Shown one piece after another: positions 18,180 through 43,900 of a DNA stretch of 64,000 nt. The position numbers were made by a program, and so were the translations under genes. The DNA is from Sarcomyxa edulis. Taxonomy: Eukaryota > Basidiomycota > Agaricomycetes > Agaricales > Mycenaceae. How positions within the stretch are numbered: position 1 is the first letter of the stretch; the number at the start of each line of letters is the position of its first letter. The DNA is taken from NCBI GenBank assembly GCA_009761415.1, contig QUOL01000028.1:62001-126000 (forward strand), written 5' to 3'. The notes under the pieces are model-generated. The model was given only the letters and a program-made list of their open reading frames with translations, ran no database searches and was not told the DNA's origin.

Positions 18180-18780
18180 GTTCCGATGGTTCTACGTTCG
18201 AATCACGTTGTGAACTGTTTTTTTTTTTTTTTTTTTCCCTTTTTGAAGTTCTTGTAGATTCTGAATTTCTTCTGTTCAGAAGGCAGCTCCATCTGAAATA
18301 TAACCTTCATTTTATGAAAAAAAAATTGAATAAATTTCTTCTGTAAGAGCCGGTACCTTTTGCTCTGTATCTGTCCAGGTGATCAAGTGCATTTGTATTG
18401 CATGTGTAATGTTGGGTGCAAGTGAAGCTCTTGCACCTATCTTGCTTTTCTTTCGGTCAAGTTGAATTATGTATGTTTCTCAAAGTGGTTGACCGTTGCG
18501 CAAACCTTTTTGCCCTGCCCAAAGTCTGCCTCACCGGCCTTCTCGGCATTCCTAAGGTCACATGACATATCTTTGTGCTCATTGTTGGACATGACAAGAA
18601 CTTGTTTTGACTTGATTCTCCGTATCTCTGGGTTCATGCAATGCTTATACATGCATGTTTCAACCCCTAACGGGCACAAGAATGTGTATACAGGCAGGAA
18701 CAAGGATGTCTATAGAGTAAGGGGACTTGTAATGTGATGCAGGAGGTCAGGGGTTGGTGAAGGAATAGTATAGTATTCCA
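18180..18780. other. T-rich tract and unassigned sequence
   Basis: A second B-box-like GTTCGAATCACGTTGTGAAC (18192-18215) is followed by an uninterrupted T run (about 18216-18236), a SINE-like tail arrangement. No gene is supported between 18240 and 18780. Confidence 0.4.
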
Positions 18781-19199
18781 AACATCAGGAAAATGCACTT
18801 TTCCCTAGAGCACCCTGAGGGTAAGCCAGAGCTTCCCAGAGCTTCTCAGAGCTTCTCAGAGATCCCAGAGCTTCAGAGCACTCAGAGCGCTCTGGGAAGC
18901 TTTAGAGACAAGTTACCTTAGCCAGAGATCTTAAAGATGTCATGGGGTATCCTAGGGCTAATTCAGAGCAATCCCAGATAATCTCAGTGCTACTCTGGAT
19001 AATCTCAGTGCTACCTCAGATAACCTCAGTGCCTGTCAGATCTATTGAGTGTAGTTCAGAGCTTTTAGAAATATCACATTTTCTTGCATACAAGTCAAGT
19101 TTTATTCAATTAAACACATATATTCATGGTCTTCTAATACATTATAACTACAAGAGAGCTAGAAAAATAGAGGAAATAGTAGGGAAAAGGATGGAGATA

Positions 19200-19800
19200 G
19201 TATAGGGAGGTGACAAAAGGTTGGGAGGTGGTGAAAAGAAGTAGGAGGTGAAAAAGAGCTGGGGGAGGATGCAAAAGAGATGGGGGAGGGTGGAGAAAGG
19301 TAGAAAAAGGTTTAAGGGGATGAATTTAAGGTAGGGGGAGGGACAAAGAGGTGGGAAAAGGTAAAAAGAGGTGGAGAAAGGTGGAGAAAGGTGAAGGGAA
19401 GGTGGGGGAACATACAAAGAGGTGGGGAGAGGTGGTAAGAGGTAAAAAGAGGTAGGGGAAGGTGGAGAAATGTAAAGGGGAGGTGGGGGGAGGTAGAGGA
19501 AGGGAAAAAGAGGCAGAAAAAGATGGTGAAAGGTGAAAGGGAGGTGAGAAAGGTCAAAAAAGGTGTGGGGAGGTAGGGGAAGGTGATAAGAAGTAGGGGA
19601 AGGTGATAAGAGGTAGGGGAAGGTGAAGAGGGAGGTATGAAGAGATCTAAACAGGTGGAAGCAGGTGGAAGATGGTACAAAGAGATGGGGAAGGTGAAAG
19701 AAGGTGAAGGCAATATAGGGGAAGGCCAAAAGAGGTGGAGAATGGTAGAAAGAGGTAGAGGGTGATGGAGGGTGGTAGGGGGTGGTAGAGGGTGGTGAAA
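19200..19800. repeat. Purine-rich minisatellite (GGTGGGGGAGGTAGAGG-like units)
   Basis: G/A-rich degenerate units, the positional counterpart of 12360-12960 in copy 1. The Phe/Pro/Ser/His-rich minus-strand frames (19148-19729, 19312-19713) are low-complexity artefacts. Confidence 0.85.
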
Positions 19801-20282
19801 AGATGGTGATACATATGCAAAAGATACAACATATCTTCTTTCCCTGTTCCTGGTTTCTTCCTTCCCATCTCTAAGCTCTCCATCCTCCAGAGTTATTGGT
19901 AGGATCTAGAAGCAGAATATATCAGCAGAAAGGACACAAAAAGAAACATATCTACAGCAGCAAAAATGACAGCAAAATTGCCATGTCACCAATGGCTGTG
20001 CTCCAGCTTCTTCAAAGAGCAGATTAGTAAGCCAAGATGACCAGGAACACTGGTATTGAGAATGTAGATGATAGAGCAATTAGTGGAAAGAAGAGGGAGG
20101 AAGGTGGAAAGAGGAAGAAGGATGATGAGCTGGCAGCCAAGTTCGCTTTCAGAGTGATGTGACACCATCACATGTGCAATGTCACGTCACACAACGAGCG
20201 AATTTCTCTAAGTCCAAAATGTGTTTGCATAAGAGGCTATACCTCAGGTTGATAGGACGAAGATAGTCACACATATACATGG

Positions 20283-23351: not shown

Positions 23352-25046
23352 AACTCGCGTCTTTACGCGCCAGTTGCTGCCATCGCGTCACTCCCATCAA
23401 CGCAAAGTATTCGTCCAGCGCAGCACAGTCACTGACTCCAGTGTATGGTTCCCAGGTATGATCGCCTGCGGACCATTTCACATGAAACTCGACTTTGCGA
23501 CCTGCCCATCAGTGGCCATTAATCTCGTCAATGAACCACTCGAGTTCATCAGACATGCCAAAATCATAGAAAAGCTTCGCTTCTCGTCCTGGAAATGACA
23601 CGCTATCGTTGGGTTCATGTGGTCTCAGCAAAGCAGAATGGAACATAGGGTGTATTCCACGCGCCACGAGCTCATCTAACAGTTGTAGTTTGTAATTGGA
23701 TGTTTTCGGGTGTGCCTCAATGACTGGGAATGGCCCAATAAATTTGGGGGCAAGTTTCCGCGCTCGGGCCTTCGGTAGATTCAGGTTCTTCGTGGATAAA
23801 TACACTAGAGCACCCTCTTCAAACGGTATATCTGGCACCCGTTTCCTATTTGTGAAATGGGTGGCCGAGACGCGCGACTCAATGATAGCGTCATGCACAA
23901 TGGCAATGTTTGCAATTGCACGTTGCGCGAAATCGCGCACGCCTTTGTATTTCCCGTTGTCGATGTCCAACGTAGTCAATCGCGGTAAGTATCCATAGTT
24001 CAATTCGAAAGGTGCGAACCCGGTACTGGCCGATATACTCGAGTTTATCGCAAATTCCGTCATAGGGGTCATATACACCCAGTCGCCCTGGTCAGGTGAA
24101 ACAAACGAACGGAGTATCTGGCTAACGTTCTGTATGGCTCGTTCAGATACGCTGTCAGTCTGTGGGTGGAATGAAGTTGACATTAATAGTTTAGTCCCCG
24201 TTAATCGATGCAGTTCACGCCAAAACTTGGACGTGAACTTCGAGTCACGGTCGGACACTATGGTCTTCGGCATCCCGTGAAGTCATATAATATCCCTGAG
24301 AAAGAACCAGGCGACGTCGGAAGAAGTATTGGTAACATCCATGGGAATTAAATGTACCATGGATGTTAATCGACAGATCACCACCAGCATGTAATCGTGG
24401 CCCAAACACTTTGGGAATGGTCCAACAAAATCCATTCCAATGGACTCCCAAGGATGTGTCGGGATAGGCATGCTGTGCATTAGTCCACTAGGAGCGTGGT
24501 TATTAGCCTTGGTCATCTGGCAGGTTCCGCAGCTTAGACAGAATTTCTCAATGTCTTTGCCGATTCGGGGCCACCAATACCAGTGCCGAATGTACTCGGA
24601 GGTACGTAATGGTCCATGGTGTCCCACTGTCCTATGTGCCTGGTCGAGTATCATCTCCGTAAGTCGTCGGGTGTTCGTTTTATTCAGTGTACGGGGTATA
24701 CAGAGGCATCGCTCCCCCCTGCGATTGCGTGTGAATATCAGGCCATCCTGTAGTGCGAAATTGCTATATGAGTTCGGGGACTCCAGCACTTTAACTAGTA
24801 CTGCGTCGTCCCCATAGCCTTCCCAAACAGATGCCAGGAATGTATCGTCGCCCTCGATCATAGGGCGTAACGGTGGTCCACAGTTCAACGCTTCAGCAAT
24901 AGTTATCCCAGTGGTGTCTAGGCCAAGGTCCTCAAATTTCTGTCGGTTGATCTCCAGTTCCCTGGCTTCCGCAACTCTGGCTTCAACTGGCTCACAAATT
25001 CTCCGTGCCATCAGCGCGAGCTTGCGCTTCAGCTGACCTTGTAGGT
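23352..25046 (-). pseudogene. Gypsy C pol, integrase and chromodomain part
   Basis: From about 25040 the frame reads through a linker, then an HHCC zinc region (HRTVGHHGPLRTSEYIRHWY ... CLSCGTCQM, about 24640-24520). The DDE core follows, with Asp in GMDFVGPFP, Asp in [10 protein letters not shown] and Glu in [10 protein letters not shown] (about 24440-24130). A GPF/Y-type stretch ([13 protein letters not shown], about 23735) and a chromodomain-like end (VEFHVKWSAGDHTWEPY, about 23490-23440) stop near 23352. Two in-frame TGAs interrupt it: 24285-24283 (DII*LHGMP) and 23511-23509 (NGH*WAGRK). Frame is preserved across both, and both fit Arg CGA to TGA. Confidence 0.85.
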
Positions 25047-25110
25047 TTATTGCAATAACCCCCGTTACATGTCGAGGGATGTGTTGCAATAAGTCCCGTT
25101 AGTTAACGGG
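25047..25110 (+). repeat. Left TIR of the KDZ element
   Basis: Starts with the palindrome TTATTGCAATAA (25047-25058). Then CCCCCGTTACATGTCGAGGG and a second GTTGCAATAAGTCCCGTTAG, ending near TTAACGGG. It aligns with the reversed right end at roughly 85% identity by eye. Confidence 0.85.
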
Positions 25111-25443
25111 CCTCTGCCGCCCGCCTGGTACTGTACGGCACAGCTCGGCACAGCTCGGCATCCCCAGATCAGGTTGCCCTTGCTTGCCCCGCTTTTATTG
25201 CTCCCGTGTATCTTATCTATTTGGTAAATTCCGATCCCATTTAGGGGACAATGCGGGCAACTCGGGCATGATTTGAGAAAATATTGGGAATATTCAGGCA
25301 ACAAAACAGGGAAAACTATAGAATGGGAAAACAGTAGATAGGTAGTAGAAAGAGCATAGAAAGCATCGAAGCAAAGGCATGGAACACAGAGAAGCAATAG
25401 ATTGCCTCCAAAAAAACCGGGAAAAAAATGGGCAAAAATGAGC

Positions 25444-26973
25444 CTACCGTTTCTGTTTCTTTGAGGCTGGGGATCCATCATCCTCATTTTCCCTACCACG
25501 CTTCTCACCCGATGTAGATAGGAGCTGGTTGACAACCCACGAGACATCCCTCACCGCGGTATACCAGTCCACCTCTTCATCCTCTTCGGGCAAAACGGAC
25601 TTCCACCATAGGAGGCACGCGATCACACCCAAGAGGCCATTGTGCCCAGGCTTCTTCATCTCATCCCAGGATCCATTTCCTCCAACAACAAGATGGTCTT
25701 GCGCCCGTTGACGCCACAAAGGATTGATAGCATCCCACCAACTCCACCACTCCTTTGCGAGCTGTTCGGAAGAAGGGAGGGGAGGCCACTTGCTCTCTTC
25801 CCAAGGGCGAGCCCGAGAGATCCAAAACTTGACGGCTTCGGGGCGATTTTTGGTGGTAAAACCGTGCGGGGGATTTTGAAAGCCGTATCTGTGTTCAAGC
25901 TCGGTCCAGCGCCTTACAGGATAGACCCACTTTTCACTGTAATCCCCTGCCAAAAGGGCAGGGTATGCCTTCTGCAACCAAGCCAGCCAGTTGGATTCGT
26001 CGACGGTGAGGGGGAATGATCCTTCGAAGACATCAATTCCGTTCTCGAGACCATCAGCGCCGTCGTTGTCGTTGTCGATTGAGCCGTTTGCGTTGTTGAT
26101 TGAGCCGTTTGCGCTGTCAATTGAGCCGTTTGCGCTGTCAATTGAGCCGTTTGCGCTGTCAATTGAGCCGTTGGCGTTGACGTTGTCGTTTGAGCCGTTT
26201 GTGGTGGCTTTGGCGTTGTCGGCTGAGCCGTTGGCATTGGCGCCAGCGTCGTCGGTTGAGCCGTTGGCATTGGCGCCAGCGTCGTTGGTTAAGCCGTTGG
26301 CATTGGCATTGGCGTTGGCGTTGTCGATTGATTCGTCGACGCCGTGGCTGTTGGTCCCGCGAGAATTGGCTAGTTCATCTACGTCCATGTCGTTCTCGAC
26401 GCGACTCGCGTCAACTATGTCTTCTCCACCTCCTTCACCTCCTCCACCTCTTGCATCTCCACCTGTGTTGCTACCTCCATCTTGCCCAACTCCCGTACCT
26501 CCACCTTCACTGCTTCCTCCATCTCCACCTTTTCTTCCACCTTTACCGTGTTCCCCACGTCCATCATTATCTCCACCCTCCCCTCGTTCCCAACGTTCGT
26601 CGTTTCCCCCACCGTCACCATGGTCTTCTTGTTGATTGTTCGGCGGATCATTCTGGCGATTGTCTTTGGACCCACTACCTCCACCTCCACGACCTGAACG
26701 AGAACGCTGGCTGGAACCCTTGGATGACGATCCAAAAAACGGGCTGTCCAGTCCCAGCTCTTTTTGGAGTTCTCGATTCTCTGCCATGTTGTTTTCCCTG
26801 CTAACCTCGTACGCTGACATCTTTTGAAGGGCTTTCATCCTCTTCTCCCGTGCTGATGAATCCATGGCGTCGAGCTCCCGACGCAAAGCGGCTCGTATGT
26901 TTAGTTCACGAGGAGAGGAGACCGGCGGTGCAGGAGGTTTGGGCGGGGGAGCCTGTGTATTGCTTGATGACAA
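25444..26973 (-). CDS. KDZ-element accessory protein a (509 aa, repeat-rich, basic tail)
   Basis: Single-exon frame from ATG 26973 to the stop at 25444. Residues 1-75: Pro-rich start then a charged segment (RAALRRELDAMDSSAREKRM, likely helical). Residues about 80-190: Gly/Glu/Asp-rich low complexity. Residues about 215-325: Asn/Ala/Asp/Ser repeats, with repeated NGSIDSA units (26045-26180). Residues about 330-480: a compact Trp-rich domain (ESNWLAWLQKAYPALLAGDY, WVYPVRRWTELEHRYGF, EWWSWWDAINPLWRQRAQDH). The end is SPASKKQKR, a likely nuclear localisation signal. The Trp-rich domain resembles proteins I recall near KDZ transposases in other mushrooms. No catalytic motif is visible. The position next to the left TIR suggests a role with the transposon, which is inference. 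Confidence 0.65.
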   Translation of the reverse strand: MSSSNTQAPPPKPPAPPVSSPRELNIRAALRRELDAMDSSAREKRMKALQKMSAYEVSRENNMAENRELQKELGLDSPFFGSSSKGSSQRSRSGRGGGGSGSKDNRQNDPPNNQQEDHGDGGGNDERWERGEGGDNDGRGEHGKGGRKGGDGGSSEGGGTGVGQDGGSNTGGDARGGGGEGGGEDIVDASRVENDMDVDELANSRGTNSHGVDESIDNANANANANGLTNDAGANANGSTDDAGANANGSADNAKATTNGSNDNVNANGSIDSANGSIDSANGSIDSANGSINNANGSIDNDNDGADGLENGIDVFEGSFPLTVDESNWLAWLQKAYPALLAGDYSEKWVYPVRRWTELEHRYGFQNPPHGFTTKNRPEAVKFWISRARPWEESKWPPLPSSEQLAKEWWSWWDAINPLWRQRAQDHLVVGGNGSWDEMKKPGHNGLLGVIACLLWWKSVLPEEDEEVDWYTAVRDVSWVVNQLLSTSGEKRGRENEDDGSPASKKQKR

Positions 26974-27555
26974 TGATGCAGCAGGTTGCGCAGAGGGGGC
27001 TGAAGTTTGATGATAGTCGGTCAGGGGAGCCTGTGTAGCGCTCTCGGGATGAGACTACAAATATTTATAGGTCCGAATCGTACAATATGGCTGGCGAGTC
27101 GTAGAGCGATATAATGGTGTGCCCGAGTAGGCAGAAGTCGATCAGATAAGGGAATATGTGAGGATTGCGGATGCCAGGCAGAATCTATGGACTCCTGGCA
27201 GACGCGGAAAGAATATCAATATAGCCCCCGTGCCCACTAGGTTACTCTATCAGTTAAGATGAGAAGCTATGAGCTGAATGGGGTGTTTTAGATGATATGG
27301 TAAAGATGATAAGATTGTAAGATCCCAAAGGCACACTAACTACAGCCTGTGATCTAAACAGATGTAAATAATGCAGCCACTCTGGGAAAAGCAAAGTGAA
27401 AATATAGGTATGCCCTATTGAAGGGCTAGGAACTGAAGAGTATATATAGGTAAGGTAAACCCTAACTAGGTATCCGTCACAGCCTGTGTATTGCTCAATG
27501 ACGATGATGTAGCAGGTTGCGTAGAGGGGGCTGAGTTTTGATGATGGTTGGTCGG
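26945..27555. repeat. Local duplication of a 75-bp 5' segment between accessory genes a and b
   Basis: AGCCTGTGTATTGCT-GATGACAATGATG through AGTTTTGATGATGGTTGGTC occurs at 26951-27030 (start of accessory a) and 27481-27550 (end of accessory b) with few differences. The adjacent genes therefore share a duplicated coding end. 27060-27460 holds nothing else I can support. Confidence 0.6.
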
Positions 27556-28787
27556 GGAAGACGTTGTAGCCGGTGTGCCTTGTCTAGACGCTGATGTAGC
27601 TGATAATCCTTGACGCGTAGACGTCTCCCCAGACGTGGATGAGATGTTTGTGTCGCGTACCAGATAGCGCATGAACTGAGCTAAGACGTTTTTCAGGAAT
27701 CCATCGTGGTCCCAATCTGCAAAGTTGACGACCCCCGCCCTTGACCTTGGAATGGAATGTATGCTGTTCGATACGTGATCAATTGTCGACCGAGGCTAAG
27801 AAGAGGAGAATAAGAACATACGAAACCAGATCAAATTTCCCGCCCGGCTCTGAAGGCTGCCTGCCACAGAGGAGGCAAAGCATGTACTCTGTGTACCCAG
27901 ATAGGCCATCGAGTAGTGGCTGAACGACCGCAGTTATTCTGGATCGTGCTCTATGAAAAAAGTCAGTCAGGCCAGCCAGAAACACATAGAAGGTGCAGTA
28001 CTCACTCAGCCTGCTCCTCAAGAGAGGAAGCTGCAGAACCATTGCCAACAGCTTCGTACTCTTCCAACTCCTGTTCATGGTCTGCCAGACACTCCGCTTC
28101 AATGGCACTGCGCACCTCCTCAGTCTCTTTATTCCAAAGTTCCTGGGCTACGCTGCAGCAAAAGTCCAAAAGCTGGCGACGGGTCAGACCTGAATTCTCC
28201 CAGCGTGCCTCGACCTCTTGAGCGACTCGAGATCTGTGATCGGGATGCTGCATGTAGTACTTCCAGGAGGCGAGCTTACGAGGAGCGGGACCAGCGCGTG
28301 TGTTAAGGGATTTGAGCCAAGAGTGGAAAGGACTGTTCGGTGCCTTGTCATGAGTGCGCATGCGATAGTTGTACCAGTTTTTGAGGCTCTGCAAATGTAA
28401 ATGAAAAATAAGAATAATATTCTGGACGGTTCAAAGAAAAAGACAACACCGAAAGATACATACCAAAGCCACGGCAGTTCTGACCTCCTTTTGCAGAGCA
28501 GCCTCTTTTTCGTCGTTCGTGTCGTTGGGTGACGCGTCATCAGAGGTAGGAGTCGTGCCTTGTGATTTAATGACAACGAGACCCGAGGAAAGTTCGTCTT
28601 TCCAGTCAAACCGGCTCCAATAGCCCTCGATAAGAGGACGCCAGAAGTCGCTTTTCCGACCATGTCTTGCGGCCTCCTCAAACGCGGGGACTTGGCTTTC
28701 AAGATATTCCAAACGTGGGCCGGTGTATTTTCCTTGATTGCCACACTTGCGTTTGGCGCCATCTGGATTGTTTTTCTTGCGACCCAT
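27466..28787 (-). CDS. KDZ-element accessory protein b (4 exons)
   Basis: Starts at ATG 28787 (MGRKKNNPDGAKRKCGNQGK, basic). Exon 1 to 28464 contains RLEYLESQVPAFEEAARHGR and FWRPLIEGYWSRFDWKDEL. Exon 2 (28390 to about 28006) contains SLKNWYNYRMRTHDKAPNSP and a helical acidic region. Exon 3 (about 27943-27822) contains VVQPLLDGLSGYTEYMLCLL and CGRQPSEPGGKFDLVS. Exon 4 (about 27796-27466) reads VNFADWDHDGFLKNVLAQFM and ends in a Ser/Thr-rich tail. All introns are GT-AG and short. The layout (basic start, 'R.E.L' plus Trp/Phe motif, NWY block, C-terminal 'W...F...F..F' block) matches a family I associate with KDZ elements in Agaricomycetes. Molecular function unknown. Confidence 0.7.
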
Positions 28788-28799
28788 TGATATTGCGTG

Positions 28800-29200
28800 A
28801 GGATTGAATCTTGAGTGGAGAACGCGACTGAGGTAGAGTGGTAGCAATGAGCTCGCGTGCAGAGTTGTCAAAAAAAAAGGAACGGTTGCTCTAGTCACTA
28901 TATTTCTGTTGCTCTACAGTGCTCCCTTAGTCTACTTCGTATGTGTAACATTATTATAGTCTTACGTCTCTGGTACGGTCGTGAGTTCAAGTCTGTTCTT
29001 GCGTATTCTTTTAGAGATTTTTTTTTGAAATCTACACCCAAGTACTTAGGATATTTATCGCAAAACTACTTCAAATTTACTACTGTCCTCCTTGAGAGCC
29101 GAGTGTACGAGGTGAGGGCATAGCGAAAGCAAATCAAATTTCAGAGCAAATTTCAAAACTAATATCCGGACATGTAGGTATAATGGAGGATGGAAGAGAC
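28800..29200. other. Spacer inside the KDZ element with a weak tRNA B-box-like sequence
   Basis: No gene is supported. GGTACGGTCGTGAGTTCAAG at 28974-28994 resembles a pol III B-box, followed by T-rich sequence; the A-box match is weak. Confidence 0.3.
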
Positions 29201-29201
29201 G

Positions 29202-30325
29202 CTTAAGAATGCACCCCTTCCAGAAATTCCTCGGCCTCAAGAATGGAATCCGTAACCATCATCTTTGTAACACCACGCTCCAGAGCTGCTGAGAAATGCT
29301 GATGTGCCTCTTCTCTGTGAAAGGAATGGGTGATTCAGTAAATTGTCCAAATGAAACCTGTAAAACCATACACACCGACTACCGTAGATCACAGGGCTAC
29401 CTTATAGCGTAGAATCGAGAGCGTGAGGTTGGCGACTTAGTAGCGGAACGTGAGGTCGACGACTTGGGAGTGGAAGGCGCGGATGGCAGCGGGAGGGTGT
29501 AGCAGTAAGATGGCACGGTGGCAACGGTGCCCTTTGAGTTCAACTTGGAGCCCTCCAAATTCGATGCCGGCATTCCCAAGTTCGAGTCCTCCACCTTTAG
29601 AGCCCTCGTCGAGCTTGATCTGCTCGCCCTCGAGACCGACCTTGACGGACTCTCCGATTTGATACTTGAACTTCCCGCTGAGCCTTCTTTGGCGTCGACA
29701 AAAGCATCCTTCACGTCGCGAGGGAAGGCTGCGGGTGACGCACGACGCTTGAAAGCAGGCGAAGGGGAAGCAGGGAAAGCGGAAGCAGGGGAAGCGGAGG
29801 AATGGGAAGCGGGGGTCTGAGTCTGAGGAGCGTGGGAGGGAGAAGTCGGCGGTGTACCAGGAAGACCCGTTGCCGGATCAAATTGAAGCAGGAGGGGAGG
29901 AAGCAAGGGTGGGACGTAGGCTCGATGAGCAGCTTGTGCACGACTCTGGATCTCGACACATTTATCCGGTGTGTGGTACTTGAGACAGTGACCCTGCCAC
30001 GCTCCAAGCGCCTGTTCCCAATATTTGTAGCTTTTGTGGGTGGACCCGGAAACCCAATTGACGGTGGAGTTGGCAGACGTCCTGCGATGAGACTATGTTA
30101 GTTTGAGGAAGAATGTGACAAGAGTTTCACTTACCAAGTGGTATACACTCCTGGCTTCAAGCCCACAGCGACCACGTAGAATTTTCCCCCATGGAGAACT
30201 GGGTTGCTGGCGCAACCTGGATCGAAAAAGTACGGGGGGTTGCAAGGGACTCGAGAAACCAAGCTGATACCTGCTGTGGCCTCCACAAGCTCGTCGTATT
30301 CGTCTGAGTCTGGCTCTTCTACCAT
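29202..30325 (-). CDS. Viroplasmin/RNase H1 N-terminal-type domain protein of the KDZ element
   Basis: Three exons. From ATG 30325 (MVEEPDSDEYDELVEATAGI) the first runs to the donor at about 30133. It contains GKFYVVAVGLKPGVYTTW, the signature of the caulimovirus VI / RNase H1 N-terminal fold. Exon 2 (about 30080-29403) completes the fold with VNWVSGSTHKSYKYWEQAL and GAWQGHCLKYH, then a long Pro/Ser/Thr/Ala-rich disordered region. Exon 3 (about 29318-29202) adds EEAHQHFSAALERGVTKMMV and ends EEFLEGVHS. This fold binds RNA/DNA hybrids or double-stranded nucleic acid in known cases. A role in handling transposition intermediates would be inference. The frame is open upstream of 30325, so an earlier start is possible. 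Confidence 0.7.
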
Positions 30326-30329
30326 GGGC

Positions 30330-31395
30330 GGGGGGGGAAGAGTGATGGGTTGATAAGGAAGAGCCTCGAAAACCAAAGCAGTCCAACATTGGAAAACATA
30401 CGCATATAAGGTCAGCCACATGTCAGCCACATGTCTTTCTAAATTTGGGCATGTGGCTGAACATCTCAAAATCATCGAGATCCTACGCAACGTGAACGTA
30501 GATCTACATACTATGCCAGCATTTATATCTTGATCTCACCTTCAGAATGTAATGTATAACTTTCATATGTTTCAGATTTTGCGTAGTAATCAACTTTGTG
30601 TGCACGTTCGAGATCGCAACCTTGAAGAAGACCGACATACACCTCCGACCCACTTGAGCTAGTGGTGTTCCGAGAGTCTAATAATTAATTATTATGATAT
30701 TGCATACCTATACCACTAGTCTCGGTAAGCTGATTGTATCAATCGGGGTGAGGGAAATCTTTTCAGTCTACTTATTGTAATGTCTGCTAGTGTATCAATG
30801 ACACTGACTAAAATCTACCCAGCTCTAGAAGTGAATATATCTTCATAACTCTATCTATTGCTGAGATCTCCAGGTTCTGAGATGGAAGTACATGTACAAT
30901 TAAGCTCAAAGTTGAACTCTTTAGCAACGCCGTACATCTACTTCAAATTGTGTACTACTACACCGGTACATATGTATATCCATGCATTCAGTTTTACAGC
31001 AGATCCTCGCCAGTAAGACTTTTTCAGTGCTCTATAGATGCCCGATTTTCATCTTATAATTGAGCTGTCAACTGTTCGTTCGCCCGGCAGGTTGTTTGTG
31101 CAAATCGTGGACGACACGACAGAATACTTGAAACACTCACCTCAAAACTCTCAAACTTTGCGACTTCTCATACAATCTCGACTTCTGAGCTTCGACACCA
31201 CTTTCAGCTCATCTTCTGACATCAAAGTAGTCTCATCGGTTGTACTATACATATCAATTTGTATAGGTTGTAAAATTTTTGGGGCTACGTACTTTCTGTA
31301 GTCGAAGATCTGTCTTCAAACTTGAGATCGGTACATCACGCAGCATGGACGGCTTGACTCTCAGCTCGGTCTTTGTTGAATTTACTACAAGCCAA
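30330..31395. other. Spacer inside the KDZ element
   Basis: About 1 kb, AT-richer than the flanking genes, between the viroplasmin-domain gene and the 3' end of the TET/JBP gene. The frames here are short and have no recognisable domain. An upstream exon of the viroplasmin-domain gene could lie at about 30420-30490. Confidence 0.4.
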
Positions 31396-31401
31396 GTTGT
31401 A

Positions 31402-33000
31402 TCAAATGTCGTCTAATCTACTGAGCATGTTGAGGCCCTGCTTCCAACGTAAACGACGAGCCTCGTCCCTTTGTTTCAACTCTTCCTGACTAGCGTTCTT
31501 CAAGAAACTCTTATCCGACTGAAGCCCGTTTGAGACCCATCGAAAAATCCCACCAGCAGAGTATTGCGTGAAAGAATATCGTGCTTCGCCGTCTTGAATT
31601 GCAGTATTTGAGTGTCGGACGAGGGCAGAAGGGATAAGTATGGTAGAGCCTGGGGGAAATCGAATGACAAGGCCCAACTCCCACAGGACGAGGTGTCCCC
31701 CAAGATCAGGATTGAACGTTCCAAGAGCCGTTATTGCGCACCAACCCCATGCAAGATTCCCCGAATCTATATGCGGGAGTGTCACCGTGGACGGACCGAA
31801 GTTGAATGTACATGCGGCAAAAACTCCTCGAGCGAAGTTACGTCGGAGCGTTTTGTCGGATTTGCATAGGATAGAGAGTGTTTCGTCATAAAATGTATGT
31901 AGAAGGGGCGCAAAGGAGGCAAACAAACCTGTGAGGAGTGAGCGGCGTTCGAGTGGAGGTAGAAGCAACTCACAATTGGCGAATCCAGAAAGGCGTTGAA
32001 ATGGGGTACTTGCCACCAGACCAGCGAGGATGACCGTGTTGATAGCCGTGTTCTGCAGCATACCGACTTTCTATAGGAGCGGTGAGCCAGCCTGAAACGA
32101 GGGGGCGATGGGGTGTCTTACCGTTTGACCGCCACCAAAAGACATCCCACACGCAAGGGCGGGGAAAGCACCTCGGCGATGTATTGATTGTTTCTCGTTG
32201 AATTTGCATCGAGGGCCCGCCGACTCAACGCCATCGGATGCCGCCCGTACCACGTTCTGCCATCCCCCACGATCCTTTGGTTGCCCACCAAGAACTCCAA
32301 GGATACAATCTTGTCGGTCTACAAGGGGATGGCAGGAGCTAGATGTTGGGGATGGTCTGTTGCGTGCTATGAAGCGAGAAATCGAGTGGGACTTACAGGC
32401 CATCCCAATCGACGTACTTCATACGCCCCCCCTCCAGCAGCTCTTTAACACCCTCGTTTTTCCCCTCAACCGCCATCCTATCATTCGCCCCAACCCCAAC
32501 CCATCCTGTAGATGCAGCACGCAAATCCCCCATGGCTACATTTAACTCTACCTTGTCGGTTTTGGCGCGCAATCGTCGACGAACGGCGACGGCTTTTAGA
32601 GACGATTGCACCGCTTCTTGAGCCTGTGCACGTCGCTTCCAACGCCGCTCCTTGAACTTTTGCTGATTCTTCGATCTGCGTATGTTGTGAATGCTAGACG
32701 TGGGGAGGGCTGGGCTCAAACTGCGTGGATTATGGAGGGTCTGTGGCAGGGAGGGTTGGAGAGGCGGTTGGTGTGCGGAAGGAGGTTTGAACGCTGAGAA
32801 GGCTTCTTCAGGTCTTGGATCCGAAGGTTCGTCAAGCTCGTTGTTGGTTTCATCAGCTACAGGTACGTCCAAGTCCTCACCGATCATCCTGCGTTGATTC
32901 TCACGGATTAGATAATCCACAACGTCAAACTTGTGATCGACCACAAAGGGCGAGTACTCGAATCCCGAGCGCGTTTTCCGACCTGTATAAATTATAGGGG
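31402..33000 (-). CDS. TET/JBP-family 2-oxoglutarate and Fe(II)-dependent dioxygenase
   Basis: Oxidises 5-methylcytosine in characterised fungal relatives. Exon A (about 33000-32397): RKTRSGFEYSPFVVDHKFDV, a Pro-rich linker, a basic helix (NQQKFKERRWKRRAQAQEAV), then KYVDWDG. Exon B (about 32342-32122): PLVDRQDCILGVLGGQPKD, NVVRAASDGVE, HRRGAFPALACGMSFGGGQT, the N-terminal part typical of mushroom TET proteins. Exon C (about 32070-31402): PFQRLSGFAN, an optional 45-nt in-frame intron (gtgagt...ctcacag, about 31970-31926), then FNFGPSTVTLPHIDSGN carrying the HxD iron ligands. ALGTFNPDLGGHLVLWELGL and PPGSTILIPSALVRHSN (distal His) follow, then RYSFTQYSAGGIFRWV (2-oxoglutarate-binding Arg). The catalytic residues are present. 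It is head-to-head with the transposase. The true first exon, perhaps near 33190 (MSC), is unresolved. Confidence 0.88.
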
Positions 33001-33320
33001 AATCAGTAAAAGAACAGGGATTTTCATAGCCTCGAAACAGGTCAGAAAACGCGTGAATCTCGTCTCCATCGTTTGCGCGCCGTTCAACAGTTCCAGGGTC
33101 GGATCACATCTACTAAGCGCCTTTGGACGGACAAAGGACGCGACTCAAAGGTATGGTTTGTGCAAAGATTGAGGAGACAACTCACAGGACATTTTTTTGG
33201 TGCCTTGGGATAGGTCTGAATTTTGTTTCACTTTGGCGCGCTTTTTGAAATCTCAGAGACATAAACAAACGCCAAACAGAATGGATTTTCCTAGCCAAAA
33301 AAGAGGAGGAATTCCCTGGA
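33001..33320. promoter_or_regulatory. Probable shared divergent promoter of the TET/JBP and transposase genes
   Basis: The two largest genes of the element start back to back: the first certain TET coding is at about 33000 and the transposase ATG is at 33321. The roughly 0.1-0.3 kb between must hold both 5' regions. No classical TATA box was identified. Co-regulation is inference from geometry. Confidence 0.45.
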
Positions 33321-36300
33321 ATGGACGCATCTAAAGGACAAACTTATGCTCGCCTCTCTCGCCGTAAACGGAAGATTTGCGAAGAGTATAATCGAAATGC
33401 TCAAAAATATGCCCTCTCCCTCAATGACATTAATTCAGCACCGGTACCTCTCGAACCCGCCTCCTTCGAGGCTCTCTCTTCCGACGGCCGCAGGATTCAT
33501 CGAAAGCAGATTCTGCTTGAACCACCGTCTTCCGTCAAGAGACTACGCGCCGCACATCAGACAAAAGCCGCCGAGTCTGACGAGCTTCCATTCACAGCAT
33601 TAGGCTTCGACTTCTTGGGTGATGACGGCGCGCCTCCCGCCATGCTTGAGAAGCCTCTAGCTAAACGCTACCTTTCCTCCGTATGCCTATTTTCCTCTAT
33701 ATTACGAGCCGTTTCTAACACCTTCATAATCAGGATGAGCCGCTATCAGAATGGAGCCACCTTCGTGACGAGTATCTCGCAGAGTTCATTCGTTTGGAAG
33801 GCCGAGGAGATTGCACCACCGATCATTGCAAGTCCTGCCCCTTAGGATCTATAGCTAGCAATCCAATTTACCGCTGCAGAGACTGTTTCAGTATGGACTT
33901 GGTCTGCGGGGACTGTTGTAGAGACGCTCACCGACAAAACCCCCTGCATGTCATCGAGGTACGATCTGCAGCCGTGTCTACATCGTCAAGCCAGCCTGAC
34001 AATTTTTCTACCTGCAAGAAATGGAATGGGGCTCATTTTGAACGTGTGGCCTTGCGAGGCCTTGGTCTGCGTGTGCAACTCGGGCACATCCACAACGAAG
34101 CCTGCACCGATCCACGCCCAGCTCATCGCGACTTCCTCTTCATTCATACCAACGGCATTCATTCGGTTGCTGTCAATTTCTGCAACTGTACCGTAGCATC
34201 AGGTTCATGGTGGCAACAGTTGATTCGTCGTGAGTGGTACCCATCTACGCACACGGACCCCCAGACGTGCTTCACGTTTCGCCTACTGGAGCAATTTCAT
34301 ATTCAAACCCTTCAAGGCAAAGTTACGCCCTACGACTACTATGCAGCCACGGAGAAGTTGACAGACAATTCTGGTACGGTGAAGATCAAGGTGCATATCT
34401 ATCCTAGCTCTGCACTGTGATAGAGCTAACGCATACATTTAACAGGATAGGTACACATGTTTCATGCGTGTAATGCGTGAATGGAGGCATTCCAAGATGC
34501 TCAAGCGTGGTGGGCGTGGCCAGCAGTACGACGATCGTGGTGCAGCAGGTACAAACCCTGGTGAAATCGCTGTTGTATGTCCTGCATGTCCTATTCCTGG
34601 GCTGAACCTTCCGGACAACTGGGACTCCGACAAACAAAAAGTGTACGTTTGTTTTCAAATGAAATACATTGTGCGTTTTGCTCACGCATCGTTATAGATT
34701 CCTTTATATTCTCTTCATTGCGATTGACACCTGCTTTTGCCTGAGGCGTCGTCTTGTATCTAGTGAGGCGAAGGATCCTGGGTTGGGAACAGGCATGTCT
34801 TATTTTGTGGAGGATCATCCCTACCGCGAAAATCTTCTGACCGTGACTGATCAAAAGGAGGTAGGTCCCCCTCCCTCCGTTCACATCCTCCCTTTTCCTT
34901 ATCCTCCGTGTTCTTTGTAGATGAGCACATGCAGTGGTTTGGCAGCTCTGGATTACGCCAACACAAAGTTCTCAAGAGGGTACGGTAGTACGGGGTGCGG
35001 TCTTGCGGTCTGCGCGCGGCATGAGTTTGTGCAAAGAAACGGCGCTGGGGATTTTCAAAAAGGCGAACGGTGCGTAGCTATACCCTCATATTTCTTCAAC
35101 GTCAGTTGAGATTCTATGCAGGTATGCCAACATGGATTATATCTTCGCCTCCGTCCTCCGTCATCACAACCCGACACTACCTAAGGTTGCGAGCTACGAC
35201 ATCGCGTGTCAATGGTCGAAGCACCTTATATCTCGTCTTAAAGGCCTCCCTCCCCTCGTACGCCTCGTCCTTGCCCTGCACCTCATCCGCTTTGTTATCC
35301 CAAAACTGCACATACACGCCCACACACAGCTGTGTCAGAGAACATACTCTCTCAACAATCTTCCGGGAGCTGGAAATACTGACGGTGAAGGGATAGAACG
35401 GCCTTGGGCAAACACTGGTCCGGTGGCTACAAGTACAACGGAGATGGGCCCAGGCTCACGGCACGACACCTTGGATGACCACTGGGGACATTGGAACTGG
35501 CAGAAGTTGGTTGGCTTAGGTACGTGAGGTTTCATGATATCGTATGTCTGCTAATTTGAATACTAGGTGCACTGCTGCTGAAACGCCTTTGTCAGGCAGT
35601 CCAGGAACGCAAGGTTCAGAACGAGTCATTCGAATCTTTCAGCAGCAAGCAGAGCGAGAGCATCCCTGTGTGGAAAGCAATGGTCGAGGCATACGAAGAC
35701 AACGCGACCAAGCCAAATCCATACGAGCTGCCAAAATTGGGGGCTACAGAGGCTGATGTTCGTCTGAACTTTGCAAAGTTGGAGGCGGAGAAAGTAGCCC
35801 GGGGAATTCCTACAATCCACGATGTCAGTCCAAGTACCTTCATCATAGCAGGGCTGGACTTAGAGGAGCAACAGTGTGTACCTTTTCCTCTTCTCTTTTC
35901 CCCCCACTAATATAAGTCTGTAGACGTCGAATCCTGATTGAGGTAGAGCTTAAGAATGCCGTCACCGTCAAGCAAAACGCCGACATTGTTGAGCTGCGTG
36001 CAAAGCTCAGCCGCAACATTGCGCGGTTTCGTACTCTTCAAGCCACATACATGCCCTCTGCCCTCCAGTCCCTTGCTCAGCGCCCACCCCCTTTGCCTGG
36101 AACGGAGGAGAAGGCTGCATTGGTGGAGAATGTCCCTCTCTGTCTCCCATCCGCGTTGTCAAAGCCAGAACGGACTAGCGGATGCAGGGAGGGTCTCGTC
36201 GACATTGAAGAGAAGCTTCGGGACGCACAGTGTAGAACGGCGCTGGATCGTTTACGAAACCAACTCCACATAAAATCAAGACTCCTCACCTATCGCGGCA

Positions 36301-37106
36301 CGCACATCAGACATCAGGGCGCTAGCACACGATCTCGCGCTCTCATTCTACGGAATGAGACCAAAATTCGCCTACACGCTGAAAAATATCGAGCCGCTTG
36401 GCAAGCCTTGAAAAACCTCGCTGACGGCGACGAATCAAAGCTACCCTGGCGTCGGTTGGAGCAAAAGGATATCCGTTGCATGGAGGAGCCGGAGGAGGTG
36501 GAACGGGAAAATTGTCGGCGGGAACGACAGGCCGAGGCCAAGGCTCAGAAGACTGGGGTTGCGTGGAGACCTGGAGAAGGGAGAAGGACGATATCGTGGA
36601 TATGGATGGGCACAGATCCAACGGTGGGCGATGCAGGGCTAGTGGATGGTACGTCTCGTTTCATACCTTTATAGCTGCAGCTGACGTTGTAGAATTACAC
36701 AGCTCTCCGAGTAGAGTGGGCCAAGGCATGGGCACGGTCTCGCAGGTGGGATGAAGAGGTGCAGCTTTTGAAGGAGGAGATGCAAAGAACCCTGGTTACA
36801 CTGCGTGCTAAAGCGCTATGGTGGGAGGAACGGAGGTTCTGCTACTCGGGTCCAGACTTAGCACTTGCAGAATGTATTGCTGCTTATGCTGCTAGTCAAG
36901 CCCTCCTCCAACGACAAATTGCCGATCGGTTTGAACGCATGTGGAGGGGTGAAATGGAGGCGCGTGTAGTGATGAAAGGGGCGGCAGGAATATTAGATCA
37001 AGGGGCTGGGGATGATGAAGGGGATGATGGCGAGGCAGAGCTAATGGATGCCATTGGACTGGAGGAGGAGGAAGGGGAAATATTTGGGGAGGAGGCTGCT
37101 TTGTAG
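33321..37106 (+). CDS. CxC2-type KDZ transposase (10 exons, about 1,100 aa)
   Basis: Exons, all GT-AG: 33321-33680, 33734-33958, 34019-34390, 34446-34642, 34698-34860, 34921-35069, 35122-35519, 35567 to about 35873, 35924-36648, 36703-37106. N-terminus MDASKGQTYARLSRRKRKIC. The CxC2 zinc cluster is at about residues 145-195 (CTTDHCKSCP, YRCRDCFSMDLVCGDCCRDA, then H). LGLRVQLGH and HTNGIHSVAVNFCNC follow, then PGEIAVVCPACPIPG. RNase H-like core: Asp in LYILFIAIDTCFCLRRR (about 395), Asp in SYDIACQW (about 515) and Glu in DGEGIERPWA (about 581). The C-terminal third is helical and charged, ending in an acidic tail. No stop or frameshift was found. It mobilises this element by the family's usual cut-and-paste logic. 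Confidence 0.9.
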
Positions 37107-37290
37107 GTCCCGGATATATATCTCTTTTTGGCCTGATAAGATTTGATAAGATTGTGCAAGTGATTGCATAAGCAGAGATAGCACCCGGCTTCACGGCTTC
37201 TCTATTGCATTAAGGCTCCGCTGGTGAGCCTATTATAACCGGTCCACAGTTTATTATAATAGGTATGGAGTCTATTGCAATAGGTACGCC
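37107..37290. repeat. Subterminal TATTGCAATA-like repeats of the KDZ element
   Basis: Between the transposase stop and the right TIR, variants of the TIR word TATTGCAATA recur: TCTATTGCATTAAGG (37200), CCTATTATAACC (37230), TTTATTATAATAGG (37251), TCTATTGCAATAGG (37273), TTTATTGCAAC (37310). Spacing is about 20-35 bp. They are likely transposase recognition sites. Confidence 0.65.
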
Positions 37291-37355
37291 CTCGTAGACT
37301 AGCGGGATTTATTGCAACAGCTTCCTCGACATGTATCGGGGGTTTATTGTAATAA
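37291..37355 (-). repeat. Right TIR of the KDZ element
   Basis: Reversed, it starts TTATTACAATAAACCCCCGA, then TACATGTCGAGGAAGCTG and TTGCAATAAATCCCGCTAG, pairing with 25047-25110. The next plus-strand base after 37355 returns to gypsy C (PVVVP codons). Confidence 0.85.
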
Positions 37356-38961
37356 GGGTACAACTACAGGTGTGCGCTTGTGTTGTCCTATGATTTCCTC
37401 CCGCCGTACATTGGTGAGGTCCTCCATATTGGGATCCAATCTTAGATTGGCGTTGACATATATGTCTTCGTCGTGTACTTCGTCGGCGGCGTCATTCTCG
37501 TAGTATCGCGACAAGCAATCCGCAACTTTGTTGGATTCACCGTCGACATGTACCACTTCAAAATCGAATCGGGAGAGATACTCATCCCATCTGATCTGTC
37601 GTCCACTAAACCCGTCACGAACGGCGGTTTTCACAGCCTTGAGAGCCTTATGATCCGTGGCTATAGTGATGTGTTGACCAAGTAACTTGTCTTCCCATTT
37701 TATTAATGCCTCGATGATAGCCAAAGCCTCCTGCTTGTATGTTTTGTATGAACGCTGTGCTGACGTGAACTTTTTGGACATGAACCCCGCTGGCCTACAG
37801 TTGCGCCAGTCAGTGCCTTGTCCGTACAGCGCTCCAACTCCTATCACAGAGGCGTCGCATATAACCCAAATGGGCTCATCAATGCGCGTGTCGATCGGGC
37901 GTAGTATAGGCGTGCGTGATGCTAAATGTTTTATACCTTTGAGGCAGTGAGTGTGTAGCGGCCTCCAGATGAATGGTGCACCGTGTCTGCTCATGGCCTG
38001 CAATGGGGAAGTAAACATCGCGACATCAGGGAGGAAATGGGCAATATATTTGACAAGGCCTAGAAACCGGAGTACTTCATTGTGTGATCTCGGTGTACGC
38101 CAGTCGATAATGCGATCCATTTTGCTCGAGTCGGCATGTAGGCCACGGTTATCAATCCAATGTCCGAGGCAATCCATATCCGTAGAGTACAAATCAAGCT
38201 TGTCTTTACTGAGAAATAGCATTTCGCGACGCAATATGTCGAACGCTATGGTCAGGTGACGCTCGTGTTCTTCGATGGAGTCCGAGTACACAAATATGTT
38301 GTCAAGGTATACATGCAAGAAAGTGCCTATATGCTCCCGAAATATCCACGTTATCAGACGTTGGAAAGTGGCCGGGGCATTACAGTCGCCTTGTTGCATA
38401 ACTGCCGATACTGAGGTGCCGAATACCGTGGAGAACACCATTTTCCATATATCCTTGTCGACGATGCGGACTTGTTCGTATGCGTCTGACATGTCGATCT
38501 TCGTCCTATATTTCCCTCTCGCCACATCCATACGGATCTGGTCCTGGTCGGGAAATGGTGTCAAGTCCTTGACTGTATTGTCATTACGCTGACGCACATC
38601 GACCACAGTGCGCAGTTTACCACTCTTCTTTGGTATACAAAGAAGGGGTGCGGCCTGCGACACCGGTTTCATCGTCCACCATCCAGCCGCTACATAGCAA
38701 TTGATTTTATCGCGCAACTCCGGCTTTAATGCATCGGGGCATCGGGGCATATGGTAGTTATATATCAAGCTCTCGTCCACTAGGGGTATCTCATGGTTGA
38801 TATCCCGCCATGGGGGAAGGTGCGAGGGAATTGGTCCTATCAGGTCGGCACAAGCCGCAATCCACTTATCACGGAGACTAGGGATGCTATCTGATGTATA
38901 GCTCGTCCGGGTCTGCCTCAGCTCTAATTGAGTAATGGCCTCATTGATATTTCACTAGTGC
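37356..38961 (-). pseudogene. Gypsy C pol, reverse transcriptase and RNase H part
   Basis: Open from about 38930. It reads LRDKWIAACADLIGPIPSHL upstream of the first internal ATG (38780), then RT motifs (KINCYVAAGWW, SQAAPLLCIPKKSGKLRTVV, KIDMSDAYEQVRI, VMQQGDCNAPATFQRLITWI). The active site reads VYLDNIFVYSD (about 38305-38290) where YxDD is expected. RNase H follows (VICDASVIGVGALYGQ, YKQEALAIIEALIKWEDKLL, IATDHKALK, LSRFDFEVVHVDGESNKVAD). The frame runs into the KDZ element at 37356. Near 38945 the frame has stops before the 38966 junction, so a small indel lies there. Confidence 0.85.
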
Positions 38962-40942: not shown

Positions 40943-43900
40943 TCACTCCCGGCGACGAAAACCCAACCCATCAAACGAAGCAAAAGCAATAGCACGAGGC
41001 GCACCTGGGTGACGAAGGTGGAACTCAGCTATTGCAGTTGGAGCATGCGTCAAATGGTCAACCGGCTCCCAAGTATCATCCTCCGGCCCGTAGCCCTTCC
41101 AGCGAACCTTGTATTGAAGCTTGCGCCGCCATATCCGACTGTTGACGATCTCCTCGACCTCTTCCTCTTCGTGATCATCAACCACCACAGGTGCTGGTGG
41201 AGGAGGAGGAATGCAGCTAGTGATTGGATCTGGTTGAGCTAGCTCTAGCTTGACGACTGGAAAGACTGGGTGGAGACGTCTCATACTGTGTGGAAGTTTG
41301 AGGCGATACGCCCCAGGCCCAACAGCCTTTTCCACAGTATAAGGGCCCCACCATTTGTGGTCGAGCTTCTTCGAAGGTCGAGTAGTCTTGATGTCTGAGC
41401 TATCAAGCCACACACGATCACCTTTCTGGAAGGTGGGAGCGGGGGTGCGACGTCGGTTGTAGTAGCGAGCATATTCGTCCTTGGCCTTCTCGATTGCCGC
41501 CTTTGCTTCGTCGAGTCCAATCTTCATCCGTTCCTTGAAGGCATTCACTGACTCAAGGGCGGATGGAGGTTGGTGAGGCTCGAAGCCCATCCGAGGGTGT
41601 CGGCCAGTGTCAAGCATGAAGGGTGTCTCTTGCGTCGACGAGTGAATATGATTGTTGTAGGTGAACTCTCCCATAGGGAGAAGCTCATCCCAATCATCCT
41701 GTCGCTCGTTGATGAAGTTACGCAAGTAGCCTTCCAGCTCCTGGTTGACGCGTTCTGTCTGGCCGTCGGATTGGGGGTGGTAAGCGGTGGAGGTGCTGAT
41801 CTTGATCCCTAGGAGTTGATAAAGCTGACGAGTGAAGTCGGCAACGAACTGGGGACCACGATCAGAGATGACGTCTCGAGGAAGTCCATGGTGCTTCCAC
41901 ACCTCACGGAGAAAGAGACGCGCGGATCCGCTGGCGTCTAGTGTGGTGTGGGTAGCAGTGAAATGAGCGCGCTTGGAAAGACGGTCTACCACGACCATGA
42001 CCGCATCGAAACCATGAGCTTCCGGAAGTTCGACAATGAAGTCGACACTAATCTTCTCCCAACGGTTGGTAGGGGTGTCTGTAGGGATCAGTTCACCGGT
42101 TGGGGGTCGATGCCGTGTCTTGGTGCGGAGGCAAGTGTCACAGTGTCGTGTATATTGCCCAATATACCTCGACATCTGTGGCCACCAGTAATTTCTTGAC
42201 ACCAACTCCAAGGTCTTGAACCGGCCCGGATGACCACCTACTCTGGAGTCGTGGTGCTGCTCTACAATTCGACGACGCAGGTCATGGGAGGGTGGGACGT
42301 ACAGCCGGCTGCGGAAGTAGAGTAAACCTTGCTGTTCGTTCCACTCTGCAGTCCGAAGGGATCGCTGGCCAGACTTTCTCAGCTCTTTGACAGCGCGAGC
42401 TACCGTCTCCTCCAGACTATCAGAGTCGTTACGCATAGCGAATCTGATGTCCTTCAGAATCTGGCTCTCTTCGCCGTCTACCGTTAACCCAGACAGGGCT
42501 GCAATCACGAACGTCTCTGGTTTCAACAGGACCATATTGTCGTTGTCACCAGAGCCGTCTCCATGATCGCTCCGACGAGATAGGGCGTCCGGCTTACCCA
42601 TGGTCTTGCCCGGTTTGTGATGTAAGGTGTAATCAAACCGAGCGAGGAACTGAGACCATCGGGCTTGCCTTCGATTGAGCTTCTGAGCCGAGCGGAAGTA
42701 CTGGAGATTTTTATGGTCAGTCCAGACTTCCACCGGGAAAAGCCCACCCTCAAGGAAATGTCTCCACTCTTCGAGAACACGAACAATGGCAAGGAGCTCC
42801 TTGTCATGTATCTCGTAGTTGCGCTCCACGGAGCTTAAGCTCTTGGAATAGAACGCAACCGGGTGCCATTTCCCATCTTCGTCGGATACCTGTTCCAGAA
42901 CACCACCTGTCGCACGATCGGAAGCATCTGCCTCGACTCTGTATGGCTTCGAGTCGTCAGGCATGATGAGTACTGGGGAGGAAGTGATCATAGCCTTGAT
43001 GAGGTCAAACGCTTGCTGCTCGGACTCACTCCAGCTGAATTTACGTGAGAGCTGGGTGAGATCGAAGAGGGGACGAGCATGCTTAGAGAAGTTCCTGATG
43101 AACCGACGGTAGAAGTTAGTAAACCCCAGAAAGGAGGATACTTCCTTCTTGTTACTTGGCGTCGGCCATTCAGCAACTCCAGCGACCTTGACCGGATCCA
43201 TCTTGACTGTGTTCTTGGAGATGATCACGCCCAGATACTCTATCTCGAGCTTCTCAAACTCGCACTTGTCGGCTCTCAGGTAGAGTTTGTGTTCCCTGAG
43301 GCGTTCAAGAACGAGCCGAGTGACGCGGCGGTGTTCTTCTAGGGTTTTGGTAAAGATGAGGATGTCGTCCAGATAGACACAGACTACACCTTCCAAGATC
43401 AAGTCTTGGAAGATGTCGTTCATCATCGTCTGGAAGGTAGCCGGGCTGTTGGTTAGTCCAAAGAACATAACCAGTGGTTCAAACAGCCCTCGGTTGGTGC
43501 GGAAAGCTGCCTTCCATTCGTCGCCTTCGCGGATCCGGACGTTGTTGAAACCCCAGCATACGTCAAGTTTAGTGAAGTACTTCGCACCCTTCAAACGATT
43601 GATAAGATCGTTGATGAGTGGAAGAGGGTAGCGGTTCTTCACTGTGAATGAGTTGAGTACGCGGTAGTCTTGTACAAGACGTAGGCTTCCATCCTTCTTT
43701 TTGACAAAGAAGACTGGAGAGGCCATGGGGGATTTCGACGGGCGGATGCGTCCGGATGCGAGGTTCTCGGTGATGAACTCGTCTAGAGCTTTCTGTTCGA
43801 CCGGAGACATAGGGTACACCTTGCACCTTGATGTTTCGGCCTCAGGGACGAGTTCGATAGCATGATCCCAGAGTTTCCGGTCAGGGAGAACGTCAAAGGA

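Follow-up and report, generated by a model that had tools for sequence, protein, structure and literature searches.

A Kyakuja transposon of Sarcomyxa edulis with exactly defined ends and a TET/JBP-like dioxygenase gene as a probably optional cargo

When a gene for a TET/JBP-like dioxygenase lies beside that of a KDZ transposase, do the two belong to one complete transposon, and is the dioxygenase a fixed part of it or a cargo that comes and goes? This question is raised by a 64,000-nucleotide stretch of the basidiomycete Sarcomyxa edulis (contig QUOL01000028.1, positions 62,001 to 126,000; G000:C21:62001-126000 in our numbering), which we call the window and whose positions serve as coordinates; the genome searched comprised 35.6 Mb in 40 contigs (named C1 onwards). 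The window contains a TET-positive Kyakuja (KDZ) transposon of 12,343 bp at 25030-37372. Our results make it likely that it is a structurally complete element in a Ty3/gypsy pol region, with a W-rich protein as a core partner of its transposase and a TET gene as an optional module that lifts silencing.

The insertion is delimited by an empty site. A Ty3/gypsy copy without the element (L019, C40:1122715-1126342) is 97.5% identical overall to the element's flanks, aligning with the left flank up to 25029 (97.6%) and with the right flank from 37373 (97.4%). The two matches overlap by 7 bp, TGCGCTT, which are present on the left at 25023-25029 and on the right at 37373-37379 as the target-site duplication. 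Because the empty site matches both flanks, the ends can be placed at 25030 and 37372 with a 7-bp duplication. The flanks themselves are recognisable as the two halves of a single pol region on the minus strand, the integrase side at 23509-25029 (Integrase_H2C2, 6.6e-17; SH3_Tf2-1, 1e-11) and the reverse-transcriptase/RNase H side at 37373-38780, an open frame read by eye.

The element's termini read CA...TG (CAGCTG...CAGGTG), and terminal inverted repeats (TIRs) of about 79 bp start at its very ends. The left one (25030-25107, plus strand) starts with CAGCTGACCTTGTAG followed by a TTATTGCAAT block and was delimited by alignment to the right end and to the ends of related elements on C3 and C10; the right one, on the transposase side (37294-37372, minus strand), starts with CACCTGTAGTTGTAC and rests on the same alignments. 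Both ends agree in 62 of 79 aligned columns, and their local score of 91 was attained by none of 2,000 shuffles of the element's ends (maximum 37). The octamer TTGCAATA/TATTGCAA matches six times within the element, at four sites, each at most 100 bp from an end. The initial annotation had proposed a complete composite KDZ unit with a TET gene inside, which is borne out by the target-site duplication with its empty site and by two relatives built alike; both of its TIRs proved real, but its bounds, 25047 and 37355, each fall 17 bp short.

All gene models of the element are free of internal stops, splicing being predicted from the sequence. The transposase gene (33321-37106, plus strand) has 10 exons separated in the predicted model by GT-AG introns of 47-60 bp and encodes 1,099 amino acids (aa). 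Its product matches the Pfam profile KDZ (PF18758, 2.4e-60, 204 bits) and, ahead of that domain, at residues 207-314, CxC2 (PF18803, 3.5e-41, 140 bits); the three acidic residues D395, D515 and E581 are all present, in agreement with the intact transposase that had been annotated. The closest relative of this transposase is 49% identical over 251 columns. Divergent from it lies the gene of the TET/JBP-like 2-oxoglutarate (2OG)- and Fe(II)-dependent dioxygenase (31402-32887, minus strand, 458 aa), modelled with three exons (32397-32887, 32122-32338 and 31402-32070), the third of which holds the HxD motif, the distal His and the Arg. The gap between the two genes (32888-33320) may contain an upstream TET exon, an open frame being present upstream of the modelled TET start.

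How firmly can this dioxygenase be placed? We consider it very probably TET/JBP-like, on the strength of profile and fold comparisons. In a family alignment (A1) of 17 members, H100, H153 and R164 are conserved in all 17 and D102 in 16, and R164 corresponds by analogy to the 2OG-binding Arg. Searched singly, the window protein had no match in Pfam at E 1 or in the PDB at E 10, and its exon 3 alone is weakly similar to the Tet_JBP profile (E 0.27); for the KDZ, CxC2 and viroplasmin domains, by contrast, profile searches of the predicted proteins agreed with what had been annotated. Among the 17 members, 9 matched Tet_JBP at E 1 or better (best 5e-4, with no match listed as passing the curated cut-off) and 4 matched 2OG-FeII_Oxy_3 (best 0.006). 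Comparison by hhalign of the family with five other Tet_JBP-like proteins of the genome (the four scanned matched Tet_JBP with E values from 1.9e-5 to 5.7e-8, each below the curated cut-off) gave 97.1% with the HxD, distal His and Arg aligned. A Foldseek search with the model of exon 3 (predicted local distance difference test, pLDDT, 53) ranked CcTet first and NgTET1 third, with E values of 5e-3 to 6e-3. The catalytic residues named for this gene in the initial annotation are in place in exon 3, but the link to the family is remote, resting on profile comparison and on Foldseek with a low-confidence model.

The enzyme appears to fit neither the AG type, to which the Kyakuja TETs of Kojima (PMC12730594) belong, according to the passages of that paper on these proteins, as close relatives of CcTET with Asp337 and Gly/Ser331, nor the PE type. 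It is set apart from the AG type because the 17-member family profile found no CcTET match at E up to 10, and because Asn (17/17) and Cys (16/17) stand, as judged by spacing only (+5 and +11 from the first His), where Gly331 and Asp337 of CcTET are expected; the PE type is disfavoured because the metal motif is HxD in 16 of 17 members (HxY in one) instead of HxE. The gene is under constraint: between the window and its counterparts on C3, C10 and C16 the proportion of nonsynonymous differences (pN) is 0.27-0.30 and that of synonymous ones (pS) saturated at 0.77-0.86, and in three younger pairs the ratio of nonsynonymous to synonymous rates (dN/dS) is 0.024-0.083.

The remaining cargo, annotated as three further genes, consists of spliced models that are indeed open but more likely represents two. 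One (29203-30325, minus strand; exons 30135-30325, 29401-30081 and 29203-29314; 327 aa) encodes an RNase H1 N-terminal (Cauli_VI, viroplasmin-like) domain (PF01693, 5.3e-10, 39.8 bits). The other is an MGRKK/W-rich gene (25444-28787, minus strand, 897 aa) of five exons (28464-28787, 28006-28388, 27822-27938, 27481-27739 and 25444-27054), for which no Pfam family was matched. Its last intron is uncertain (426 bp, with a weak donor, GTGACG), but the pieces join in frame across it, and a single open frame in the C10 relative runs from the last stretch of the MGRKK part into the beginning of the W-rich part (read by eye); because of these two observations the halves are probably one gene rather than two. 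A stretch of about 90 bp that encodes the linker of this gene is duplicated at 26941-27040 and 27471-27575, flanking the uncertain intron, and is perhaps the scar of an insertion or duplication.

The same plan recurs in two relatives with long TIRs of their own, C3:1078572-1090743 (12,172 bp; TIRs of 86 bp at 87%) and C10:404834-417241 (12,408 bp; 89 bp at 93%). Over 106 columns of their ends, 85 agree in C3 and 89 in C10, and the genes of both follow the order seen in the window. By tblastn both carry the W-rich part (E about 2e-4), the TET gene and the transposase; in C3 the MGRKK part is matched as well (4e-5), and between the other genes of C3 and C10 there are short RNase-H1-N matches (0.003 and 0.009). 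By eye we also found an MGRKK part in C10 and, in both relatives, RNase-H1-N-like segments that are repeated and lie on the strand opposite to that of the window's gene. Identity to the window is 29-55% in the transposase pieces and 62-66% in the catalytic exon of TET. The six ends of the three elements have in common a 15-nt outer tag, ending in GTAG in five of six, and then a block resembling TTATTGCAAT or ATTATAATG; one end each of C3 and C10 starts with GA, not CA. The flanks of C3 and C10, for which no empty site is known, match over 10 bp (by eye beyond 9), and a 10-bp duplication was considered and set aside in favour of 7 bp, because the six ends then align gap-free through the outer tag. 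In C16 and C38 no TIR pair was found within the 14 kb taken from each, and their ends may lie outside these stretches; neither was counted as complete.

Other relatives differ in their ends. Two TET-positive copies, C4:571596 and C39:1614969, are 99.8% identical over 1,405 bp and likewise over 3,528 bp around their TET genes, and have unrelated sequence before the CACTAGATG end; as read from these sequences, a TET-positive relative has moved recently. A 200-bp query from the CACTAGATG end of this B-group relative found no inverted partner, so TIRs seem to vary within the group. Elsewhere, C2:361102-374495 and C2:391963-405356 are inversely oriented TET-positive elements, identical over the 3,558 bp compared, whose W-rich genes face each other.

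Is TET then a constant companion of the transposase? The search for CxC2 gave 34 matches at 33 loci (two in one gene were merged, and C38:355550 fell under the cut-off). A TET match lies within 5 kb at 17 of the 33 loci and is missing at 16, TET-negative meaning here no match to this TET by protein search, a search that might overlook a strongly divergent TET. In four of the 17 (window, C3, C10 and C16) TET and transposase are encoded on opposite strands, in the other 13 on one and the same. The W-rich gene is the steadier of the two: it lies upstream on the opposite strand within 16 kb at 23 of the 33 loci (11 of 17 TET-positive, 12 of 16 TET-negative) with a chance expectation of about 2.7% per locus, several loci being near-identical copies and not independent; C23:2366533 was left out, its same-strand match belonging to the neighbour C23:2389800. 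The W-rich part occurs at 30 places in the genome, of which 23 adjoin a CxC2-KDZ locus and seven have no CxC2 partner at these distances; the same holds for eight of 25 TET loci, although a KDZ match lies about 2.6 kb from one of them, C38:346392. Median spacing between the W-rich gene and the transposase is 9.6 kb at the 11 TET-positive and 6.6 kb at the 12 TET-negative loci (range 5.0-13.2 kb), in keeping with a TET module placed between two core genes. From this arrangement TET looks like a labile module on a core of transposase and W-rich protein. For the initial annotation this means that the unit stands, that its TET gene, kept in C3 and C10 but without a match within 5 kb at 16 of the 33 loci, is optional, and that the W-rich gene is the transposase's more constant partner.

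Phylogenies point the same way. The transposase tree comprised 24 of the 33 loci (14 of 17 TET-positive and 10 of 16 TET-negative), near-identical copies, C1:4131488 and the weak C38 hit being omitted. A single TET-positive clade was rejected (p-AU, approximately unbiased test, 7e-16), and the tree contains five changes between presence and absence of TET, at least four of them forced by the starred branches. The TET-negative C34:209 falls within a TET-positive clade (p-AU 1e-4), which is best read as loss or replacement of its TET. The TET tree of the TET-positive elements has three clades that match three transposase groups if the window is grouped with C3, C10 and C16, a clade that the transposase data neither recover nor reject (p-AU 0.07 with all rows, 0.43 with TET-positive rows only). 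A swap of TET between transposase lineages was considered, since the transposase tree joins the window to three TET-negative elements (91/91), but the clade of window, C3, C10 and C16 is not rejected, the window sits on a long branch and we do not claim it.

What could such an enzyme act on? C5-methyltransferase domains occur at three places in the genome. Between the gypsy copy around the element and the empty copy, 65 sites differ in the 2,547 bp compared: CpG was lost by transition at 30 sites in the window copy and at 5 in the empty copy, with 18 other transitions and 12 transversions. The excess of CpG-loss transitions (30 versus 5) suggests methylation-driven decay and therefore a substrate for TET. 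In Laccaria and Coprinopsis, according to the portion of PMC8889193 that deals with them, 5-hydroxymethylcytosine (5hmC) and 5-formylcytosine (5fC) are enriched at TET genes and transposable elements. That the TET gene counters host methylation, as had been suggested, is plausible, and removal of 5-methylcytosine (5mC) to avoid silencing, as Kojima proposes, is its most likely role, demethylation being inferred.

The reading that we prefer can then be outlined. The transposase would recognise the element's ends and insert it with a 7-bp stagger. The W-rich protein, present with TET-positive and TET-negative relatives alike, would be a second core component that binds the ends or exerts control. 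The TET-like enzyme would oxidise methylcytosine on the element and so lift the silencing imposed by a host methyltransferase. Its gene, lying between those of the two core proteins, is read as an optional module with several gains, losses or replacements behind it. As a tentative extension, which we put forward as a possibility rather than an expectation, the TET/JBP enzyme of the Kyakuja of Sarcomyxa edulis (HxD, with Asn and Cys at the spacings of Gly331 and Asp337 in CcTET) may be of a type distinct from the three known in transposons. Its gene would be a labile insert flanked by those of the CxC2-KDZ transposase and of the W-rich protein, and the latter would be a second part, not yet named, of the machinery for transposition or its control.

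Several results weigh against this picture. The element's TIR was found nowhere else in the assembly, either by exact pattern or with a 70-bp terminal query, so that the mobility of this very element is known from one insertion; of the copies with the same TIRs that the annotation had led us to seek, only the element itself was recovered, although the C3 and C10 relatives bear TIRs of their own on the same plan. The observed/expected ratio (o/e) of CpG is lower in 14 TET-positive (0.905) than in 10 TET-negative CxC2 loci (0.983; p 0.0065), the opposite of protection. A first look had seemed to favour protection (0.88-1.04 in five TET-positive elements or stretches versus 0.56-0.70 in eight single-exon KDZ loci), and this was rejected because the proper control, TET-negative loci of the same CxC2 lineage, reversed the difference. 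As for the enzyme, the Foldseek search with a relative's model (pLDDT 48) placed a carboxylase first and CcTet at ranks 2-7, VIA-align put AlkB (7.4) level with CcTet (7.3), and the identification as TET draws on remote similarity and on two models of low confidence.

These points also bear on other explanations. The enzyme may mark the DNA instead of erasing marks, oxidised cytosines at the ends letting the transposase complex (CxC2 cluster and W-rich protein) recognise the ends or choose targets. The retention of TET beside the transposase in 17 of 33 loci and the 5hmC/5fC enrichment in other mushrooms speak for this, and the CpG depletion, not reduced in TET-positive elements, fits marking no worse than erasing; we nevertheless hold it unlikely, since TET-negative siblings have near-identical copies (C12/C36 and the C40 pair, with equal scores), so that a TET in cis seems dispensable for the transposase, and since no reader domain for oxidised cytosine was identified. 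It is similarly improbable that the enzyme is a 2OG dioxygenase with a different substrate (alkylated DNA repaired as by AlkB, N6-methyladenine or a protein) and aids the element by other means: the VIA-align score of AlkB would suit it, but Tet_JBP is matched by more members and with better E values than 2OG-FeII_Oxy_3, hhalign joins the family to the Tet_JBP-like set, and CcTet came first with one Foldseek model and second with the other.

The element could also be decaying or immobile, with TET and the accessory genes as passengers of no present effect. Being the sole copy found of its subfamily, with a distant nearest transposase and a negative CpG test, it gives this idea some footing, but all modelled genes are open, the H, H and R residues of TET are kept in 17 of 17 members and the D in 16, dN/dS is low in relatives and one TET-positive relative moved recently; we regard it as rather improbable. 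As to inverted repeats lying by chance around unrelated host genes, the score of the TIR was also reached by 2 of 2,813 pairs of 120-bp stretches drawn at random from the window, but the exact 7-bp duplication with its empty site and the two relatives with the same gene order inside TIRs of their own leave this explanation next to no probability.

The element genuinely belongs to a class described only recently, has exactly mapped bounds and differs from that class in its TIRs, its TET type and its conserved partner gene. Iyer et al. (2014) were reportedly the first to find TET/JBP genes next to those of KDZ transposases that bear CxC clusters, and may already list such TETs. In the portions of the literature covered, our search found neither the W-rich partner nor a TET of this type described; Iyer et al. 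(2014) lay outside the comparison and absence from print is not claimed. TET-positive Kyakuja of Agaricomycotina were published in December 2025 (Kojima 2025, PMC12730594), and as described in the relevant passages of that paper they resemble the present element in having a KDZ transposase and TET/JBP inside the ends, with 7-bp duplications and CA..TG termini given for two Laccaria families. These two families are said there to be without TIRs, a trait that does not define the group as a whole, whereas the three elements described here have TIRs of about 79-106 columns; the CACTAGATG end without an inverted partner is in line with Kojima's TIR-less Kyakuja. Accessory genes are not mentioned in those passages, whereas RNase-H1-N and MGRKK/W-rich genes are present here. 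KDZ1-3 of Cryptococcus neoformans (PMC12810828), as far as the account drawn on here extends, are likewise large (about 9-11 kb) with TIRs of 139-241 bp; they have CxC1 instead of CxC2, 4-8 bp duplications and no mention of TET, and their movement has been demonstrated experimentally. In the corresponding parts of the work on Pleurotus ostreatus (PMC7641404) and Marasmius oreades (PMC8290104), the intact P. ostreatus KDZ are all preceded by CxC2, as here, and KDZ TIR motifs are characterised in M. oreades (PMC7641404, PMC8290104); neither TET cargo nor a W-rich partner is described there, and both are present here.

One genome thus contains an exactly bounded TET-positive element and its empty site, two similarly organised relatives, a TET-positive pair that moved recently and TET-negative siblings, and with such a set it becomes directly testable, through 5mC, 5hmC and movement, whether a transposon-borne TET helps its transposon. 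The conserved W-rich gene would be worth including in work on transposition. Should the enzyme fall outside the known types, its substrate would have to be asked anew, and the DNA-base oxidases carried by transposons may be of more than one kind.

Other parts of the window and genome contain related sequences. A second CxC2-KDZ locus, without TET, lies at about 50365-51200 (C21:112365-113200, minus strand); 253 of 526 core positions were recovered in 3.5 kb, and its CxC2 scores equal to that of C21:130662, 18 kb away. At 63423 to the window's end (C21:125423-126172, plus strand) there is a KDZ locus from a different lineage, with a single exon and one TGA inside it, and its eight relatives (L001-L008) are depleted in CpG (o/e 0.56-0.70). 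A second gypsy-type open frame of 1,303 aa at 40943-44854 (minus strand) has reverse-transcriptase, integrase and chromodomain-like sequence by eye. Six other Tet_JBP-like loci gave weak but consistent matches (C14:272054, C12:112496, C30:22259, C9:559007, C4:310971 and C37:1832563), and five of them (L013 excluded) lie in CpG-poor DNA (o/e 0.23-0.74). Finally, in the window the stretches 8001-14000, 16001-20000 and 52001-58000 have a CpG o/e of 0.21-0.60 with raised TpG/CpA, as after the decay of methylated repeats.

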